Source: Thiomargarita sp. (GTDB lineage Bacteria > Pseudomonadota > Gammaproteobacteria > Beggiatoales > Beggiatoaceae). Taken from it: a DNA stretch of 41,980 nt. The notes below the pieces were generated by a model, which did no database searches, was not told the origin of the DNA, and saw nothing but the letters and a program-made list of their open reading frames with translations. The stretch is from the NCBI GenBank assembly GCA_020718845.1, contig DYRG01000024.1:1-41980 (forward strand), written 5' to 3'. Positions 3,403 to 41,980 of this stretch are shown piece by piece. A program made the translations under genes and the position numbers. Numbering within the stretch: position 1 is the stretch's first letter; each line of letters starts with the position of its first letter.

Positions 3403-5306
3403 GGTGTTGATTTCTCAAGTTTGGTTATCGCAATGTTTTCTAATCGATCCAAATGTTCTTGATGAATACGATTTTGAATCATACTAAATTCTAAGCGTAA
3501 TTGTTTAATGTATTTAAGGGCTTCTTCAAACGCCCCCATTTCCATTATCCAACCGAGTTTTTGCAATTTTGCAATATCTTTTTTGGGAACATTATGTTTT
3601 AGTGCTTCCTCTATTTTTTGAAGTGCAGAAACGTAATGTCCTTGAAAGGCTTCCCAATTAGCATACCACATAGAAATTACGCCCCGATTATTCTTCATTT
3701 GAGGATTATTCCACAACAGAGAAAGAATATTTGTCATGATTTCAGGCGAGAAACGTTGGCATTTTCCACTAACATAAGTATCTAATAAATTTTGAACGCC
3801 TGTCACAGCACCATCATTATCGGGAGGATTGTTAAGCCGTTGATATACCAAGTTGAAATCAGGCGGTTCTATTTCTGGATATTCACAAGCCACATCTATC
3901 CAGAAAATATAAGGCGCAACATCCTTTGGAAATACATCAACCATGTGTTTGTAACGCTCGATACTTTTCTCAGGTTGTTTCATGTACAAATACATCGTTG
4001 AAACATGAGATTGTGCATAACGAGAAAGCGGTTTTTCTTCTGCCCAATGCACTGCTTGTAGAAATGGATCGCGCCATAAACTTATTTCTAACAACGTTGC
4101 ACTTAAAATCAGAGCAACCCAACCGATACTAAAACCTAACATTGCTTTACGAATTAATGGGGTTAGTTTCTCTGATTGTAATAATGCAAGCATTCCCAAT
4201 ACAACGCCAACCACAGGTCCTAATAACGCTAAATAATTACGATGCTCAAAATATAAAACCAAAGGAAGAAAGGTCGATTCTAATGCGTGACCAGCAAAGA
4301 ACCATAAAATCCCAAATGCTAAAATCGGGGCTTTTTTTCTAAAGATAATTGCTACAAAAAAACTCGTAATAATTGTAATAACACTAAATAACGTTGAAAT
4401 GGGCGTGAACAAATCCTTTGAAACAACATAATCGTCTTGAAATAAATTGAATTTCATAAAATACCCAGGAATAAAGATATTTCCTATGTAATTCAATAAA
4501 ATGCGGCTTTCTGTTAATAACCGTTCAGAAAACGTAAATAACCGATAACTGTAATCTCTTTCTGGATGAAAAGTAAGCGCAAAATAACTTGCAATAATAA
4601 GCAACGGTGCATAAATAAAAACTGCTTTCCAATACAACCAATAACGCGGTTTGGGTAAATTACTTAATACAGTTGCTTCAACTACCCACAAATATAATAA
4701 AATCAATACACCATTTTCTTTACTAAAAATTGCAAGTAATCCGCTTATAACAAGTCCTACAGATGCAACGAGATAACCTTGTAAGTATTTCTCTTGAATA
4801 AGTAATTCTCGCCCTTTTAAATAAAACAACAATCCAAATACAATAAACAAAATAGAGAGTTGTGCCATACGTTGAATGACATATAACACAGTAGAAACTT
4901 GAATGGGTGATAATGTCCAAATTGCGGTGCAAATAAAGCTCACTAGAAATACTGTTCTTAACGGATATTTTAATAACCGTCCAATCATCATTAAAAGATT
5001 ATAAATTAATCCCGCAATTAACAAATGAATTGCAATATTGATATATTTGAAAGAGGTTGCATTCGGATATGAGTCGGCTTGTAATGCAAAGCTAAACAGA
5101 GAAATAGGTCTTCCCAAAGGTCCAGCCGTACCCGCTTGAATAAACTCCAAAATATTCTGATGCTTTTTAACTTGCGTAAGCTCCGACAAATTCGGATCGT
5201 CATCCAGAATAAGCAGCGGACTTATTCCAAAACTATACAAACCTCCGCAAAGCATAAGAAACAAAAGAATCGCAGAAATCCGAAAAACTTTAGATTGAAT
5301 AGGCAT
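3399..5306 (-). CDS. Polytopic GT-C-like protein with helical-repeat tail; pilin glycosyltransferase candidate
   Basis: 635 aa. After TM1 (about 10-30) comes a periplasmic acidic motif LILDDDPNLSEL, in the place where GT-C enzymes (PMT, ArnT, TMTC types) keep catalytic acids. About ten further hydrophobic helices run to residue 410. The last 200 residues are soluble and helical (ARYAQSHVSTMYLYMKQPEK, EEALKHNVPKKDIAKLQKLG), TPR-like in spacing. The gene follows the pilin gene after a terminator and overlaps the DPM1-like gene. By analogy with the oligosaccharide or arabinosyl transferases encoded next to pilA in Pseudomonas (TfpO, TfpW), it may transfer a lipid-linked sugar to pilin. Function is inferred. 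No good Shine-Dalgarno precedes ATG 5306. Confidence 0.7.
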   Translation of the reverse strand: MPIQSKVFRISAILLFLMLCGGLYSFGISPLLILDDDPNLSELTQVKKHQNILEFIQAGTAGPLGRPISLFSFALQADSYPNATSFKYINIAIHLLIAGLIYNLLMMIGRLLKYPLRTVFLVSFICTAIWTLSPIQVSTVLYVIQRMAQLSILFIVFGLLFYLKGRELLIQEKYLQGYLVASVGLVISGLLAIFSKENGVLILLYLWVVEATVLSNLPKPRYWLYWKAVFIYAPLLIIASYFALTFHPERDYSYRLFTFSERLLTESRILLNYIGNIFIPGYFMKFNLFQDDYVVSKDLFTPISTLFSVITIITSFFVAIIFRKKAPILAFGILWFFAGHALESTFLPLVLYFEHRNYLALLGPVVGVVLGMLALLQSEKLTPLIRKAMLGFSIGWVALILSATLLEISLWRDPFLQAVHWAEEKPLSRYAQSHVSTMYLYMKQPEKSIERYKHMVDVFPKDVAPYIFWIDVACEYPEIEPPDFNLVYQRLNNPPDNDGAVTGVQNLLDTYVSGKCQRFSPEIMTNILSLLWNNPQMKNNRGVISMWYANWEAFQGHYVSALQKIEEALKHNVPKKDIAKLQKLGWIMEMGAFEEALKYIKQLRLEFSMIQNRIHQEHLDRLENIAITKLEKSTP

Positions 5307-5340
5307 AGTATGAATTTAAAATTAAAAGAAAATTACACAA

Positions 5341-5370
5341 ATAAAAACCCGCCCAAAATGAGCGGGTTCT
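5341..5370 (-). terminator. Rho-independent terminator after pilin
   Basis: On the minus strand ACCCGC, an 8-9 nt loop, GCGGGT and then TTTTTAT. It lies between the pilin stop (5391) and the GT-C start (5306). It would give abundant pilin mRNA with lower read-through into the glycosylation genes. Confidence 0.8.
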
Positions 5371-5390
5371 ATTACACTGAACAGATTAAA

Positions 5391-5789
5391 TTATTTCTTA
5401 CATGCGGTTGGCAAATAAGCAGGAGAAACAGTACTATTTGAACAAGTCCAAGTTTTAGCAGCTGAATCATAAGTTAATTTGATGTCACCAGAGATGCTTG
5501 CATCTTTCATGTTAGCTTTATAACCCATACCATCAATAGCAACAGCAGTGGTGTATTTACCGCTTAATTTACCACCCAATTGATCTTTGATGTTAGTAGG
5601 CCATGTGCCTCTGCTTCCGAACCATTCTTCGGTTGGGGTTTTTAAGCCCGCTAATAAGCCTAAAGCTTCAGCAACTTGTGAACGTTTCAAGTAATCACTG
5701 TATGCTGGGATAGCAACGGCTGCCAAAATACCGATAATCGCCACAACGATCATCAATTCAATTAAGGTAAAACCTTTTTGAGTTTTCAT
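5391..5789 (-). CDS. pilA: Type IV major pilin
   Basis: 132 aa. Leader MKTQKG is followed by [20 protein letters not shown], the class III signal cut by PilD after Gly6. It has Glu5 of the mature protein and the hydrophobic N-terminal helix of type IVa pilins. Cys116 and Cys130 would close the C-terminal D-region loop; the loop residues SNSTVSP are Ser/Thr-rich and could carry a glycan. A strong GGAG Shine-Dalgarno sits 8 nt before the ATG. Glycosylation-type genes follow downstream, and a 10-bp repeat array lies upstream. Major versus minor pilin cannot be proven, but length and sequence fit PilA. Confidence 0.93.
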
Positions 5790-5970
5790 GGTAATACTCC
5801 TTCAATAATTGTTTCTAGGAAAATCTAACATACGCCATCTAAATACGGGTACGTCAGTAATGATTGCAGATAATGCCTTCGTAATCAATACAAGCAAATT
5901 GTATGCCAATAATTAACTATCTAATTTTTAAACGATTTTTTTAAGCAAATATTCAACTATTCAAAATAAG

Positions 5971-6018
5971 TGTTCAAAAATGTTCAAAAGTGTTCAAAAG
6001 TGTTCAAAAGTGTTCAAA
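5971..6018. repeat. 10-bp tandem repeat (TGTTCAAAAG), short array of 5
   Basis: Five head-to-tail TGTTCAAAAG units (the first ends AA, the last is partial). They lie about 180 bp upstream of the pilin start, in the pilin promoter side of the intergenic region. Confidence 0.9.
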
Positions 6019-6090
6019 CATAATTCATTGATTTAAAATGATATTTTCCAATATAAAAATTAATATATTGATTTTTAACGATTAAAAAAG

Positions 6091-6220
6091 TGTTCAAAAG
6101 TGTTCAAAAGTGTTCAAAAGTGTTCAAAAGTGTTCAAAAGTGTTCAAAAGTGTTCAAAAGTGTTCAAAAGTGTTCAAAAGTGTTCAAAAGTGTTCAAAAG
6201 TGTTCAAAAGTGTTCAAAAT
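6091..6220. repeat. 10-bp tandem repeat (TGTTCAAAAG) x13
   Basis: Thirteen units, twelve perfect and the last TGTTCAAAAT, ending 4 bp before the protease terminator hairpin. The A4 tract recurs every 10 bp, close to one helical turn, so intrinsic curvature is expected. The array is open in frame on the plus strand but encodes only a low-complexity artefact. Separated from the 5-unit array by 72 bp of AT-rich DNA. Confidence 0.92.
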
Positions 6221-6243
6221 AAAAAAGGGGCTTACGCCCCTTA
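6221..6243 (-). terminator. Terminator of degP
   Basis: AAGGGGC-TTAC-GCCCCTT, a 7-bp stem 6 bp after the protease stop codon. On the minus strand the stem is followed by a T-run (complement of A6 at 6221-6226). Confidence 0.85.
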
Positions 6244-24149: not shown

Positions 24150-24188
24150 GATTAACCACCTTGTTGAAGGCATATTATAATACAAGTT

Positions 24189-24230
24189 GTTTTAATTAAG
24201 AAAGTTTGCCGTGACATTGTTTGTGTTTTT
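24189..24230 (-). pseudogene. Orphan 3' end of a SEC-C protein gene
   Basis: On the minus strand this reads KKHKQCHGKLS and a stop. It is nearly identical over about 42 bp to the last codons of the TPR-SEC-C gene (25016-25057, [11 protein letters not shown] plus the following TTAATTAAAACAA). The rest of the gene is missing. Confidence 0.65.
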
Positions 24231-24260
24231 TAATACGGATAAACACCGATTAATTCAAAT

Positions 24261-24294
24261 AGATAAACACTGATGTTTTAATCCGTGTTTATCT
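24261..24294. repeat. Inverted repeat within degenerate GTGTTTATC motifs
   Basis: AGATAAACAC (24261-24270) pairs with GTGTTTATCT (24285-24294). Further relatives (ACGGATAAACACCGAT before it, CATCTGTGTTTTC after it) make a cluster of four related motifs between 24232 and 24330. It lies between the PIN gene and the SEC-C remnant. It has no T-run. Confidence 0.55.
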
Positions 24295-24345
24295 CTCTTT
24301 TAACTCATCTGCGTTCATCTGTGTTTTCTGATTATCCTCTAAATT

Positions 24346-25003: not shown

Positions 25004-25024
25004 CTTTATTGCTCCTTGTTTTAA

Positions 25025-28000
25025 TTAAGAAAATTTGCCGTGACAGTGTTTGTATTTCTTTCCTGAACCGCACGGACATGGATCATTACGATTAATTTTA
25101 GTTGTTTCGTTTTTAAACCTGACAGGTTTCGAAAACCTGTCAGGTTTCTCTAGGTTTTTTGATGCCGCTAAACAACTCTCGTAATTCTCCTTATATAATT
25201 TTGTATCGGGATGTTCTTCTCCTAAAATTTTCCTAACAATCTTCAAACTTTCTTCATACAACGGCAAGGCTTGCTCGGGCTTTCCCATTGTTTTATACAA
25301 TAAAGCTAAATTGTTGAGATCAGTTGCAACTTTAGGGTGATTTCTACCATAAACTTTTTCATCTATTTTTAAGGCTTCTTCAAACAACGGCAAGGCTTTC
25401 TCATATTTTCCTTGAGAATAATATAAACCCGCTAAATTGTTGAGAGAACTGGCATAATAGGGATGCTGTGTGCCTAAGACTTCTTTATAAATCTTCAAAC
25501 TTTCTTCAAACAACGGCAAGGCTTCCTCATACTTTCCTTGAGAATAATATAAAATCGCCAGATTGTTGAGGCTGGTTGCAACATCGGGATGTTCTGTACC
25601 TAAGACTTTCTCCCTGATTTCTAAAGCCCTTAAATACAACGGCAAGGCTTCCTCATACTTTCCTTGATTTCTATATAATTCCGCCAGACCGTTGAGACTG
25701 GCTGCAACATCGGGATGTTCTTTTCCTAACACGTTCTCCCAGATTTCTAAAGCCCTTAAAGACAACGGCAAGGCTTCCTCATACTTTCCTTGATTCAAAT
25801 ATAAATCAGCCAGATTGTTGAGGCTTTGTGCAACATCGGGATGTTCTTTACCTAAGACTTTCTCCAAGATTTCTAAAGCCCTGACATACAACGGCAAGGC
25901 TTCCTCATACTTTCCTTGATTCTTATATAACAACGCCAGACTGTTGAGGCTTAATGCAACTAAAGGATGTTCTTTACCTAACACTTTCTCCCTGATTTCT
26001 AAAGCCCTTAAATACAACGGCAAGGCTTCCTCATACTTTCCTTGAGAATAATATAAAATCGCCAGATTGTTGAGGCTTTGTGCAACATCGGGATGTTCTT
26101 TACCTAAGACTTTCTCCCTGATTTCTAAAGCCCTTAAAGACAACGGCAAGGCTTGCTCATACTTTCCTTGAGAATGATATAAAGCCGCCAGATTGTTGAG
26201 GCTGGCTGCAACTTCAGGGTGATTTCTACCATAAACTTTTTCATCTATTTTTAAGGCTTCTTCAAACAACGGCAAGGCTTTCTCATATTCTCCTTTTGAT
26301 TTATATAAAATAGCCAACCCAGCTAAGGAAGTGGCAGTTTTCTCACTTTGTTTTCCAAAGCGTTTTTGATTTACTTTGAGGATTTGTCGACGCAAGATAG
26401 TTGTTGCCTGACCATAACGCCCCGCAGTTTCTAATAAATCCGCTAATTTTCCCGAATTCAAATACACGGGCGGACGTTTGGATAAATGTAATTTTCGCAT
26501 TAAATTAAACCAACGTTCTTTTAACCCTACTTTCAAAAAATCCCAAGCATAAATTTCCTCCATATCTTCATAATCAGAAACCTGCCGCCAATATTTCAAT
26601 AATTCATATTCATTATTATGCGAACTCATTAATGAAGCTGAACTAATGCAGGTTTTTAAATCTTCCCAGTGTTGCGCTTCAAATAAATGATGCGGTAATT
26701 CATTCGCAATTCTTTCATCGAGCGGTTGGGTTTTGAAATACATTGCCAAATCATAATGCGCAGCTTTTTTTAACTCTTCATTGTTCAAATAATGTTGTTC
26801 GACCGCTTGTTGTAAATAACTATGATAAAAATTAAGCAATCCATTACGATTAACCAATGCCAAGACTTGATCAAAAGCCGCCGAAATAATCAACCATTCA
26901 TATTGAGGAATATTAAGAATTTCTAATAATTCATGTTCAGACAAACCCCGTCGAGAAATCCAAATCAAACGCATTGCATTACAAATGCTCTCTTTACCAT
27001 AACTTTCCTCAAAACGTTGCAACACTTTAATGTATAACTCAGAAATGGTTTCCGCCGCTAAATAATGTTCTAATTGTTCCTTTAAACGAAGATGCTCACC
27101 CACCACTTGCATTTCTTTTAATAAAACTTTCAAATACAAAGGATTGAGCGTTTGCGGTTGTTTTGCAATCAATTTTAAATGATCAGAATGTAAATCTTTT
27201 CCGCCTAATTCACGCTGTAAAATGCTTTTAACAATTAAGTCACGTTCTTGAGCATTTAATAACGCAATTTCAAAAGATTGCCAATCTTTGCGTTGTTGTA
27301 AAATTTCAAATTGAGAATGATCGGTTAAAGTTGAAAGATACAAACGCACTTTCTCAGGAATAAAAGTCGGCAACCAGAGTAATTTTTGCGCCTCTTGTTC
27401 TAATTGATTTAACCCATCTAAAATCAACACTATTTTCTCTGGAACATTTGCTAACCATAACGGCAATTGTTTAATGAGTTTCTCTGTTGAGGTGGGCAAA
27501 TTTTCTTGCGTATAAATTAAAGGAAAACGGCTTTTTAATTCCTCAAATAATCGCCGCAATAAATGATCTAAATTCGTGCTTTCTGCGGAACTTCCAATGA
27601 AATGCCAAATAATAAAAGTATTAGGTGTTTTCTCTTGTAATTGAAATGCCCAATTTGCTAACAAAGAAGTTTTACCAGAACCCGATTCACCCACAATCAC
27701 CAACGGCAGGTTAGTTTCTACAAAATGTTGATCTAAACGTTGAAAATCGGTTTCTCTTTTCAAATAAACCCATTGTCTTGAATAGGCAAATCCATCGTGA
27801 CTTGATCGAGTGCGTTCTAATTCAGTGGGGATTTCTGATTCGGGAAAAAGTTCATCAACTACTGTTTTAAGATGCTCAAAAACTAAATCACTTAAATCCG
27901 TTGGTTTTTGATAATCCGTAATAGGTAAGTTTTTCTCTCGAATTTGTTGCTTTAATTGCTCTAAACGTTCTTTTTTAATCGGATCGGTTTCAGCAAATAA

Positions 28001-28198
28001 ATCTTCATTTTTTTCATCAAAACGTTTTGCAGGTGATAAACTTTCTAAAAATACTGCATCACGAAAATAGAAGTGCATGGTTTGATTGAGATTTTTATCA
28101 CCTTGTTCACGAAACAACGCATGATAAATTTCTAATTCTGTAACGCTCGATTCTGGATAATCTTTTAACCACTCAAATTCATCATAACGATTTGCCAA
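25025..28198 (-). CDS. NTPase-TPR-SEC-C protein, 3' part of a nonsense-split STAND gene
   Basis: Open for 1057 codons from TTG 28198, which is a poor start. P-loop [14 protein letters not shown] at about 170-180 and Walker [13 protein letters not shown] near 255 mark a NACHT/STAND-like NTPase. Next comes a helical region (about 370-600), then about nine 42-residue kinesin-light-chain-type TPRs (630-1000) and a C-terminal zinc-binding SEC-C motif [17 protein letters not shown]. The frame continues without shift into the DUF4062 gene upstream, separated by one TAA and one AAC codon. The N-terminus ([19 protein letters not shown]) is the normal continuation of DUF4062-NTPase proteins. STAND NTPases often act as defence sensors. 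A 33-bp palindrome is inserted near residues 1018-1028. Confidence 0.8.
25115..25147. repeat. 33-bp palindromic element inside a coding region (copy 1)
   Basis: Two perfectly complementary 15-nt arms, the left one AAACCTGACAGGTTT, separated by CGA. It lies in frame within the TPR-SEC-C gene and encodes about [11 protein letters not shown] between the last TPR and the SEC-C motif. It is identical base for base, and in orientation, to the copy at 41501-41533. Confidence 0.93.
25250..26330 (-). repeat. 126-bp tandem coding repeat (TPR units)
   Basis: The motif CAACGGCAAGGCTT recurs about nine times at 126-bp spacing (42 codons). Several neighbours are near-identical at DNA level (TCCTCATACTTTCCTTGA). 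This points to recent expansion or homogenisation of the TPR array. Confidence 0.85.
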
Positions 28199-41500: not shown

Positions 41501-41533
41501 AAACCTGACAGGTTTCGAAAACCTGTCAGGTTT
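41501..41533. repeat. 33-bp palindromic element, intergenic (copy 2)
   Basis: Identical to the element at 25115-25147: two 15-nt complementary arms around CGA. Here it lies 18 bp after the stop of the winged-helix gene. On the minus strand it is followed by a T-rich stretch (TTTTGTGCGC, then TATTTTTTTTA), so it could serve as that gene's terminator. Confidence 0.93.
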
Positions 41534-41551: not shown

Positions 41552-41899
41552 TTAGATTTGATTAGAAGAAAGCGGTTTGGGTGTTTGTTTTTTATGTTTT
41601 AGCAAAGCAAGTTGATCGATTTCTAATGGCGTTAAAGGTAAGACGGGTTTTAGAAGCGTAAAGAAATTAGTCAAATAACCACCATGATCGGCGATGTCGG
41701 ATTCTTTTTTAAGAAAACCATTGGCAATCAACGAGTTAATACGATTTATAATGTAAGGTTTGCTCAAACCCGTTTCGTCTTTAAGTTGATTAAGGCTCGC
41801 ATAACCCGTGTGAGCGTGTGTTGCTAAACCTTTGTTTTTATTAAAGATAAGTAAAAGGGCATTTAAAATAATTCGATCATTCTTTGCAGACGTGAACAT
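41552..41899 (-). CDS. Winged-helix DNA-binding protein
   Basis: 115 aa from ATG 41899 (MFTSAKNDRIILNALLLIF); the frame opens at 41938, but purine-rich GAAGAAGA lies just before 41899. Residues about 30-75 (YASLNQLKDETGLSKPYIINRINSLIANGFLKKE) form a winged helix-turn-helix. A short C-terminal tail (LTPLEIDQLALLKHKKQ) follows. Could be a MarR-like or plasmid/phage-type regulator; target unknown. No neighbour inside the window explains it. Confidence 0.65.
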   Translation of the reverse strand: MFTSAKNDRIILNALLLIFNKNKGLATHAHTGYASLNQLKDETGLSKPYIINRINSLIANGFLKKESDIADHGGYLTNFFTLLKPVLPLTPLEIDQLALLKHKKQTPKPLSSNQI

Positions 41900-41980
41900 G
41901 ATGGTCTTCTTCCTCTTGTTTTTTAGGTAGTGATGCAAAATGTAGTGATAGGATATATTTAAAGAGCGGCAAGGTACGCA

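Follow-up and report, generated by a model that had tools for sequence, protein, structure and literature searches.

The window, by which we mean the whole 41,980-nucleotide stretch of Thiomargarita DNA that was analysed, contains the same 33-bp palindrome at two sites, once inside a protein-coding gene and once between genes. The features around the two copies are as follows.

25025 to 28198, minus strand: host gene of about 1057 aa, with a NACHT ATPase, TPR repeats and a C-terminal SEC-C motif; the frame reads through the element
25028 to 25114, minus strand: coding tail past the element, 29 residues including the SEC-C motif, frame kept
25115 to 25147, no strand assigned: putative REP element, copy 1, AAACCTGACAGGTTT-CGA-AAACCTGTCAGGTTT, in frame in the TPR-SEC-C gene (residues 1018-1028)
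25148 to 25157, no strand assigned: CTCTAGGTTT beside copy 1, with an additional AGGTTT hexamer
41501 to 41533, no strand assigned: putative REP element, copy 2, identical to copy 1; intergenic, 18 bp past the stop codon of ORF 41552-41938
41552 to 41938, minus strand: gene with its 3' end at copy 2; weak MarR_2 match, under the cut-off

Both copies lie in one orientation, and the sequence-only reading of this window, which had reported the same 33 bp as an inverted repeat with a CGA centre at two sites, was exact in sequence and coordinates at both. The element is a perfect inverted repeat with 15-bp arms and a 3-nt centre, and each arm is in turn a palindrome about its own central base. As single-stranded DNA the 33-mer is predicted to fold into a 15-bp hairpin of approximately -15.8 kcal/mol (z -6 to -7.7), and its copies are short stem-loop palindromes with a common consensus, as is usual for REPs. 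Judging by its letters, the AGGTTT hexamer in CTCTAGGTTT is possibly a decayed extra half-unit. Rfam gave no match in the window, plasmid and phage searches with the element gave none, and a literature search on its exact sequence returned no relevant paper.

The NACHT ATPase forms the N-terminal part of ORF 25025-28198, and the element, which is in phase, encodes residues 1018-1028 of the linker that joins the last TPR to the SEC-C motif (residues 1037-1055); this bears out the earlier claim that about 11 residues are encoded between two domains. The unit is 33 bp long, which makes 11 codons, and two of the three phases on each strand contain no stop, so an insertion into a coding linker lengthens the protein by 11 residues and leaves the frame intact. 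Most likely the TPR-SEC-C linker gained its 11 residues in this way.

The sequence-only reading had proposed that the whole genome and its relatives be searched for the 33-mer, and such searches revealed a dispersed family. The exact arm motif is found 16 times on each strand of the 2.98-Mb Thiomargarita genome, in pairs, and doublets number 10 at two mismatches or fewer and 14 at three or fewer. The exact 33-mer with a CGA centre occurs only twice; the other copies differ mainly in the 3-nt centre. Relatives of the same family carry from 0 to 699 copies each (699 in G032), 21 genomes from other families of the class carry none, and a reversed control pattern gave zero matches in every genome searched, so that the recurrence of the element exceeds chance. 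In a species-level genome collection the exact 33-mer was found in 34 contigs, mostly from Bacteroidota (Flavobacterium and others), with further records labelled Chlorobiota, Cloacimonadota, Balneolia and Anaerolineales; many of these come from metagenome bins, in which an individual contig may have been misassigned. Among 296 evenly drawn Bacteroidota genomes, nine had the strict motif. The statement that similar palindromes occur in other phyla was therefore sound, the exact 33-mer being present in Bacteroidota and four other groups. However, a recent or actively spreading element cannot be read from the two identical copies, as had been suggested: the same 33 letters are also identical between phyla, so that identity of copies is not a clock. 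An element with a TAA centre was also seen in one IMG/VR viral contig of 28,997 bases (L088:2864-2896), a possible vehicle between hosts.

In many of the contigs with the 33-mer, a gene whose product has NHFH and YIHNNP motifs either contains the element or lies next to it. A look for a REP-type (TnpA-REP) transposase, likewise proposed at the outset, found one RAYT in Thiomargarita with the element inside its gene. This is the sole Y1_Tnp gene of the genome (C119:10090-10653); it holds AAACCTTCTAGGTTT-TCA-AAACCTAGAAGGTTT, 33 bp, in frame between NHFH and the Y motif, with no flanking copy. The HuH motif is NHFH, and the Y...NP motif is YIHRNP in Thiomargarita and YIHNNP in Bacteroidota. A profile of the RAYT had a single PDB match, 4ER8, which is E. 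coli TnpA_REP bound to REP (E 8.7e-6). Moreover, an AlphaFold model (pLDDT 87) of the Bacteroidota homologue L073, approximately 50% identical to the Thiomargarita RAYT, had the same structure as its top match (E 2.7e-8, TM 0.60/0.71), which places it in the TnpA_REP fold; the lowest-confidence residues of the model fall in the REP-encoded stretch. Of the curated models, NF047646 scored 45.6 of 80 bits, which is significant and below its cut-off, and PF01797 scored 25 bits with a cut-off of 23.

The position of the element within the RAYT gene recurs. All nine same-family RAYTs of this subfamily that were examined (L194-L202) bear it at the HuH-Tyr site, mostly as the 33-bp doublet and, in G033, G003 and G027, as a 15-bp single arm. 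The doublet or the single arm is also present there in seven Bacteroidota/Chlorobiota RAYTs, which were reached through the 33-mer and are hence ascertained by the motif. The step from singlet to doublet is 18 bp and keeps the frame. RAYTs with no insert at this site exist as well (L064, L060 and L084). Element copies flank the RAYT gene in G033 (L124), as in a REPtron, and arrays of elements adjoin it in G032, G003 and G027. The arrays beside RAYT genes at L317 (about 5279-5407), L200 and L201 have a regular spacing of 48 or approximately 66 bp and related spacers. Many copies in G032 (L304-L323) and G033 (L124) have common longer asymmetric flanks, approximately GCC-element-TAAATCC, and the -1/+1 bases are complementary in few of them; some lineages may amplify a larger unit than the 33-mer.

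Copy number was then compared with the presence of the RAYT subfamily. Among 36 same-family genomes, copies were far more numerous where the subfamily was present (Mann-Whitney p 1.6e-4; p 0.009 with one genome per genus). The exceptions were G001 and G006, which have 258 and 65 copies and no recognisable RAYT of the subfamily; G024 has RAYT fragments and zero copies. In the 296 Bacteroidota genomes the strict motif and RAYT presence were not significantly associated (4 of 9 versus 77 of 287, p 0.21).

It is highly probable, in our judgement, that the 33-mer is a REP-type hairpin and the likely substrate of a RAYT/TnpA_REP protein, that is, a Y1 HUH single-strand transposase. We infer that the RAYT is the mobilising enzyme and that mobility proceeds through single-stranded DNA. 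A strand in the single-stranded state, for example the lagging strand, would expose the 15-bp hairpin, which the RAYT would recognise and cut next to its foot. The cut hairpin would be copied or excised and then joined elsewhere, and a unit that landed in a coding linker would add its 11 residues with the frame intact. The sequence-only reading knew of no established mechanism for such palindromes, but this was too pessimistic, since the RAYT/TnpA_REP model exists (PMC6006769, PMC3733652).

The placement of copies was assessed in 1.25 Mb from four relatives, in which approximately 85% of bases are coding. The elements in this sample were many and mostly extragenic, with 126 of 133 lying outside called ORFs, and copy 2 of the window, 3' of a gene, is in a typical REP position. 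Intergenic copies were enriched at convergent junctions (32 versus 17.8) and depleted at divergent ones (13 versus 23.6; p 2.8e-4). The enrichment between convergent genes would also suit a bidirectional transcription terminator or an mRNA-stabilising hairpin, kept for gene regulation and not mobile. The element would form a strong RNA hairpin of -22 to -23 kcal/mol, and copy 2, just past a stop codon, was found by a terminator scan, but on the other strand. We nevertheless regard this explanation as improbable, because copies occur within ORFs whose frame continues, including the transposase gene in distant phyla, and because terminators that evolved independently would not be expected to share their letters across several phyla or to range from 0 to 699 copies within one family. 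Any termination may instead be a by-product of where copies are tolerated.

Seven elements of the sample were in called ORFs, two of them in a short doubtful ORF; the proportion of insertions that are in frame is not readable from these, because ORF calling hides frame-breaking insertions. The copy in PurL lies between the AIRS_C and PurM_N-like domains and that in a 1775-aa protein between Pkinase and AAA_16. Further firm copies are in a caspase-domain protein, a 261-aa protein and the RAYT itself. In the PurL gene of G027 (L287/L289), the linker that holds the REP in G003 is occupied by another tandem repeat in frame, NGGFRLHSTHPTSNS, so that linkers serve as tolerated sites for more than one repeat.

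What is constrained in the element was examined with a pairing test on 80 distinct elements from four relatives, whose selection was blind to the three central positions of the arm. These positions pair between the arms in 91-93% of cases, versus 36-58% expected. In 21 of the 30 elements with two departures from the template, the departures fall at opposite positions of the two arms and pairing is restored, and in none do they fall within one arm; 20 of the 21 compensatory cases are one change, at position 2, and may therefore share ancestry. Elements from other phyla keep the interior AGGTTTNNNAAACCT and differ in their outer bases, which change together as several kinds of complementary pair, and in the G022 RAYT copy, AGAGATGACAAGTTT-TGA-AAACTTGTCATCTCT, sequence and peptide have diverged and the palindrome is still perfect. 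The compensation between arms and the G022 palindrome indicate that the long hairpin is the constrained object. Mini-hairpins within an arm were considered as the functional structure and rejected, since compensatory changes occur between arms and none within an arm.

The elements also turn over in orientation. A 175-bp sequence is duplicated (95%) at two loci of the Thiomargarita genome that lie 3 kb apart, and the two copies carry the element in opposite orientations with respect to the flanks. Between G003 and G027 the loop is inverted (TTA/TAA) at two of four common sites, one of which also has a T-A to A-T arm swap, and the loop is likewise inverted between the Flavobacterium loci L054 and L082. 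This pattern fits hairpin inversion or replacement by another copy. Such loop flips at sites that otherwise match mean that two identical copies in the window are no evidence of a recent event.

The paired changes could owe something to gene conversion or template switching as well. A stronger form of this idea is that the hairpin spread with no dedicated enzyme, through template switching or gene conversion at replication, and that the copy in the RAYT gene is one more target. Hairpin template switching is expected to leave inverted loops and pairing-restoring changes in the arms, and some copy-rich genomes have no recognisable RAYT of the subfamily. We hold this explanation to be about as improbable as regulatory retention, given the specific site inside the RAYT gene across phyla, the arrays beside RAYT genes and the correlation of copy number with the RAYT. 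REPs that lack their RAYT gene have, moreover, been reported for other REP families (PMC3733652).

It is also conceivable that a short linker peptide (NLTGFxNLSGL or KPDRFxKPVRF) is what is selected and that a chance palindrome encodes it, and the RAYT copies do mostly use one frame, [ND]LTGFxNLSGL. However, the frames differ by gene, with KPDRF in the window gene and a G027 gene and NLTGF in PurL and the RAYT; the peptide of the G022 RAYT became MTSFENLSSL while its palindrome stayed perfect; and the majority of copies are non-coding. We therefore consider peptide selection very unlikely.

Empty sites were sought in five ways, and no clean 33-bp empty allele was found among them; the compared sites were occupied, rearranged or held another repeat. 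An alignment of TPR-SEC-C homologues, which had been proposed as a way to see a clean insertion, did supply a homologue and a paralogue without the element but no clean empty allele. The best homologue in 42 same-family genomes (G058, 50%) has a different linker of 29 residues and no clean 33-bp difference, and the paralogue in the same genome (C102) has a stop before SEC-C and likewise no clean empty allele. The recJ locus of Flavobacterium, compared in 249 genomes, showed intergenic turnover, with other hairpins or a gene in the place of the element. Several sites were occupied in both G003 and G027, with the different in-frame repeat in the G027 PurL, and a flank search across all collected loci gave no clean empty case. 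An IS-derived MITE of the ordinary DDE kind, which would also be a short, dispersed inverted repeat, can be set aside almost entirely, because the unit consists of a single hairpin that encloses no interior, the flanks of the occupied sites examined show no consistent target-site duplication, and the associated enzyme is Y1 HUH and not DDE.

With a RAYT-mobilised REP as the favoured reading, the element and its enzyme were compared with known systems. TnpA_Y1 subclass 2.4, or Bertels RAYT group 4, occurs in Bacteroidetes and scattered phyla (Quentin et al. 2018, PMC6006769), and its REPs have a GT[AG]G foot, with double-foot forms GT[AG]G...C[TC]AC (PMC6006769). Like that subclass, the RAYT described here is a Y1 HUH protein of approximately 190-200 aa with NHFH and, in Bacteroidota, YIHNNP, and has a REP in frame between its HuH and Y motifs. 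Unlike it, the present RAYT has F-[E/Q] where the guide-binding site of that subclass has W-Q, and the 33-mer has no GT[AG]G foot. We file the pair as a REP/RAYT-type system but, since the element has neither tag and the RAYT has F-[E/Q] for W94-Q95, do not assign it to subclass 2.4. For subclass 2.6 (Bacteroidetes, YIH[QN]NP, NH[LIV]H, REPs without GTAG), the Y motif of the Bacteroidota RAYTs and the missing tag fit, whereas NHFH does not fit NH[LIV]H.

The GTAG- and CGTC-tagged REPs described by Di Nocera et al. 2013 (PMC3733652) have convergent or 3' locations and include REPs inside genes. The present family resembles these superfamilies (PMC3733652) in being made of 20-40 bp palindromes in many copies, 3' of genes and between convergent ORFs, with some in ORFs, and in its RAYT association, which GTAG REPs share (PMC3733652). 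It differs in its symmetric 15+3+15 hairpin with the conserved interior AGGTTTNNNAAACCT; the 33-mer contains no GTAG (GT[AG]G) or CGTC tag, and neither tag forms a common foot in the flanks in the Thiomargarita genome. The earlier likening to Rickettsia palindromic elements was apt by analogy, and RPE-4/6 have been equated with CGTC-tagged REPs (PMC3733652). By their description those are also palindromes in frame in protein genes at tolerated sites, but the present family is mainly intergenic and comes with an associated RAYT. E. coli TnpA_REP (4ER8), the best profile match and best fold match of the RAYT, is only approximately 15% identical over the structural alignment; its GTAG guide contacts are not conserved, with F-[E/Q] where E. 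coli has W94-Q95, and E100, H101 and R104 not conserved. REPINs, a name that reportedly goes back to Bertels and Rainey in 2011, are said to be inverted pairs of REP units that act as one unit. The 15-bp singlets in the RAYTs of G033, G003 and G027 and the 33-bp doublets recall this arrangement, but the doublet spacer is 3 nt and the pair is one continuous hairpin.

REPs, REPs within RAYT genes and REPs within other genes are already published; what sets the present family apart is the absence of a GTAG or CGTC tag, F[E/Q] for W94-Q95 and near-identity across phyla. A broader reading, which we put forward tentatively and rate slightly short of an even chance, is that it represents a REP superfamily outside the GTAG and CGTC groups. 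Its hairpin would be a tagless 15+3+15 unit, its RAYT lineage would have lost the guide-binding residues and kept its own substrate in frame, and it would have moved between phyla with the hairpin nearly unchanged, leaving 11-codon inserts in linkers of housekeeping and signalling genes. The favoured reading, a REP with its RAYT, explains palindromes that recur across phyla and ties them to a specific enzyme lineage. Processing of REPs without a GTAG guide, if it occurs, would mean that the current recognition model is missing something, and guide-free recognition is directly testable because both partners have changed together (a REP without the tag and a RAYT with an altered guide pocket). 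The favoured reading also offers a route to 11-residue linkers in bacterial proteins, as in the NACHT-TPR-SEC-C protein, PurL, the kinase-ATPase and the caspase-domain protein.

Other repeats were noted near the host gene and elsewhere in the window. Positions 24187-24231 are a 45-bp, 91% copy of 25016-25060, the 3' end of the SEC-C gene, 829 bp away, and contain half a SEC-C motif and a stop. Adjoining this copy, at approximately 24232-24330, is a second dispersed repeat (ACAGATGAACGCAGATGAG ... GGTGTTTATCCGT). The TPR-gene paralogue (L364, G000:C102), on the minus strand near the contig start, terminates in NYESCLEEMK followed by a stop, and past this stop there are two tandem copies of the second dispersed repeat with a SEC-C half, which suggests that another repeat disrupted the same linker in this paralogue. 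Finally, two runs of a 10-bp tandem repeat (AAAAGTGTTC) occupy an intergenic region at 5936-6229.
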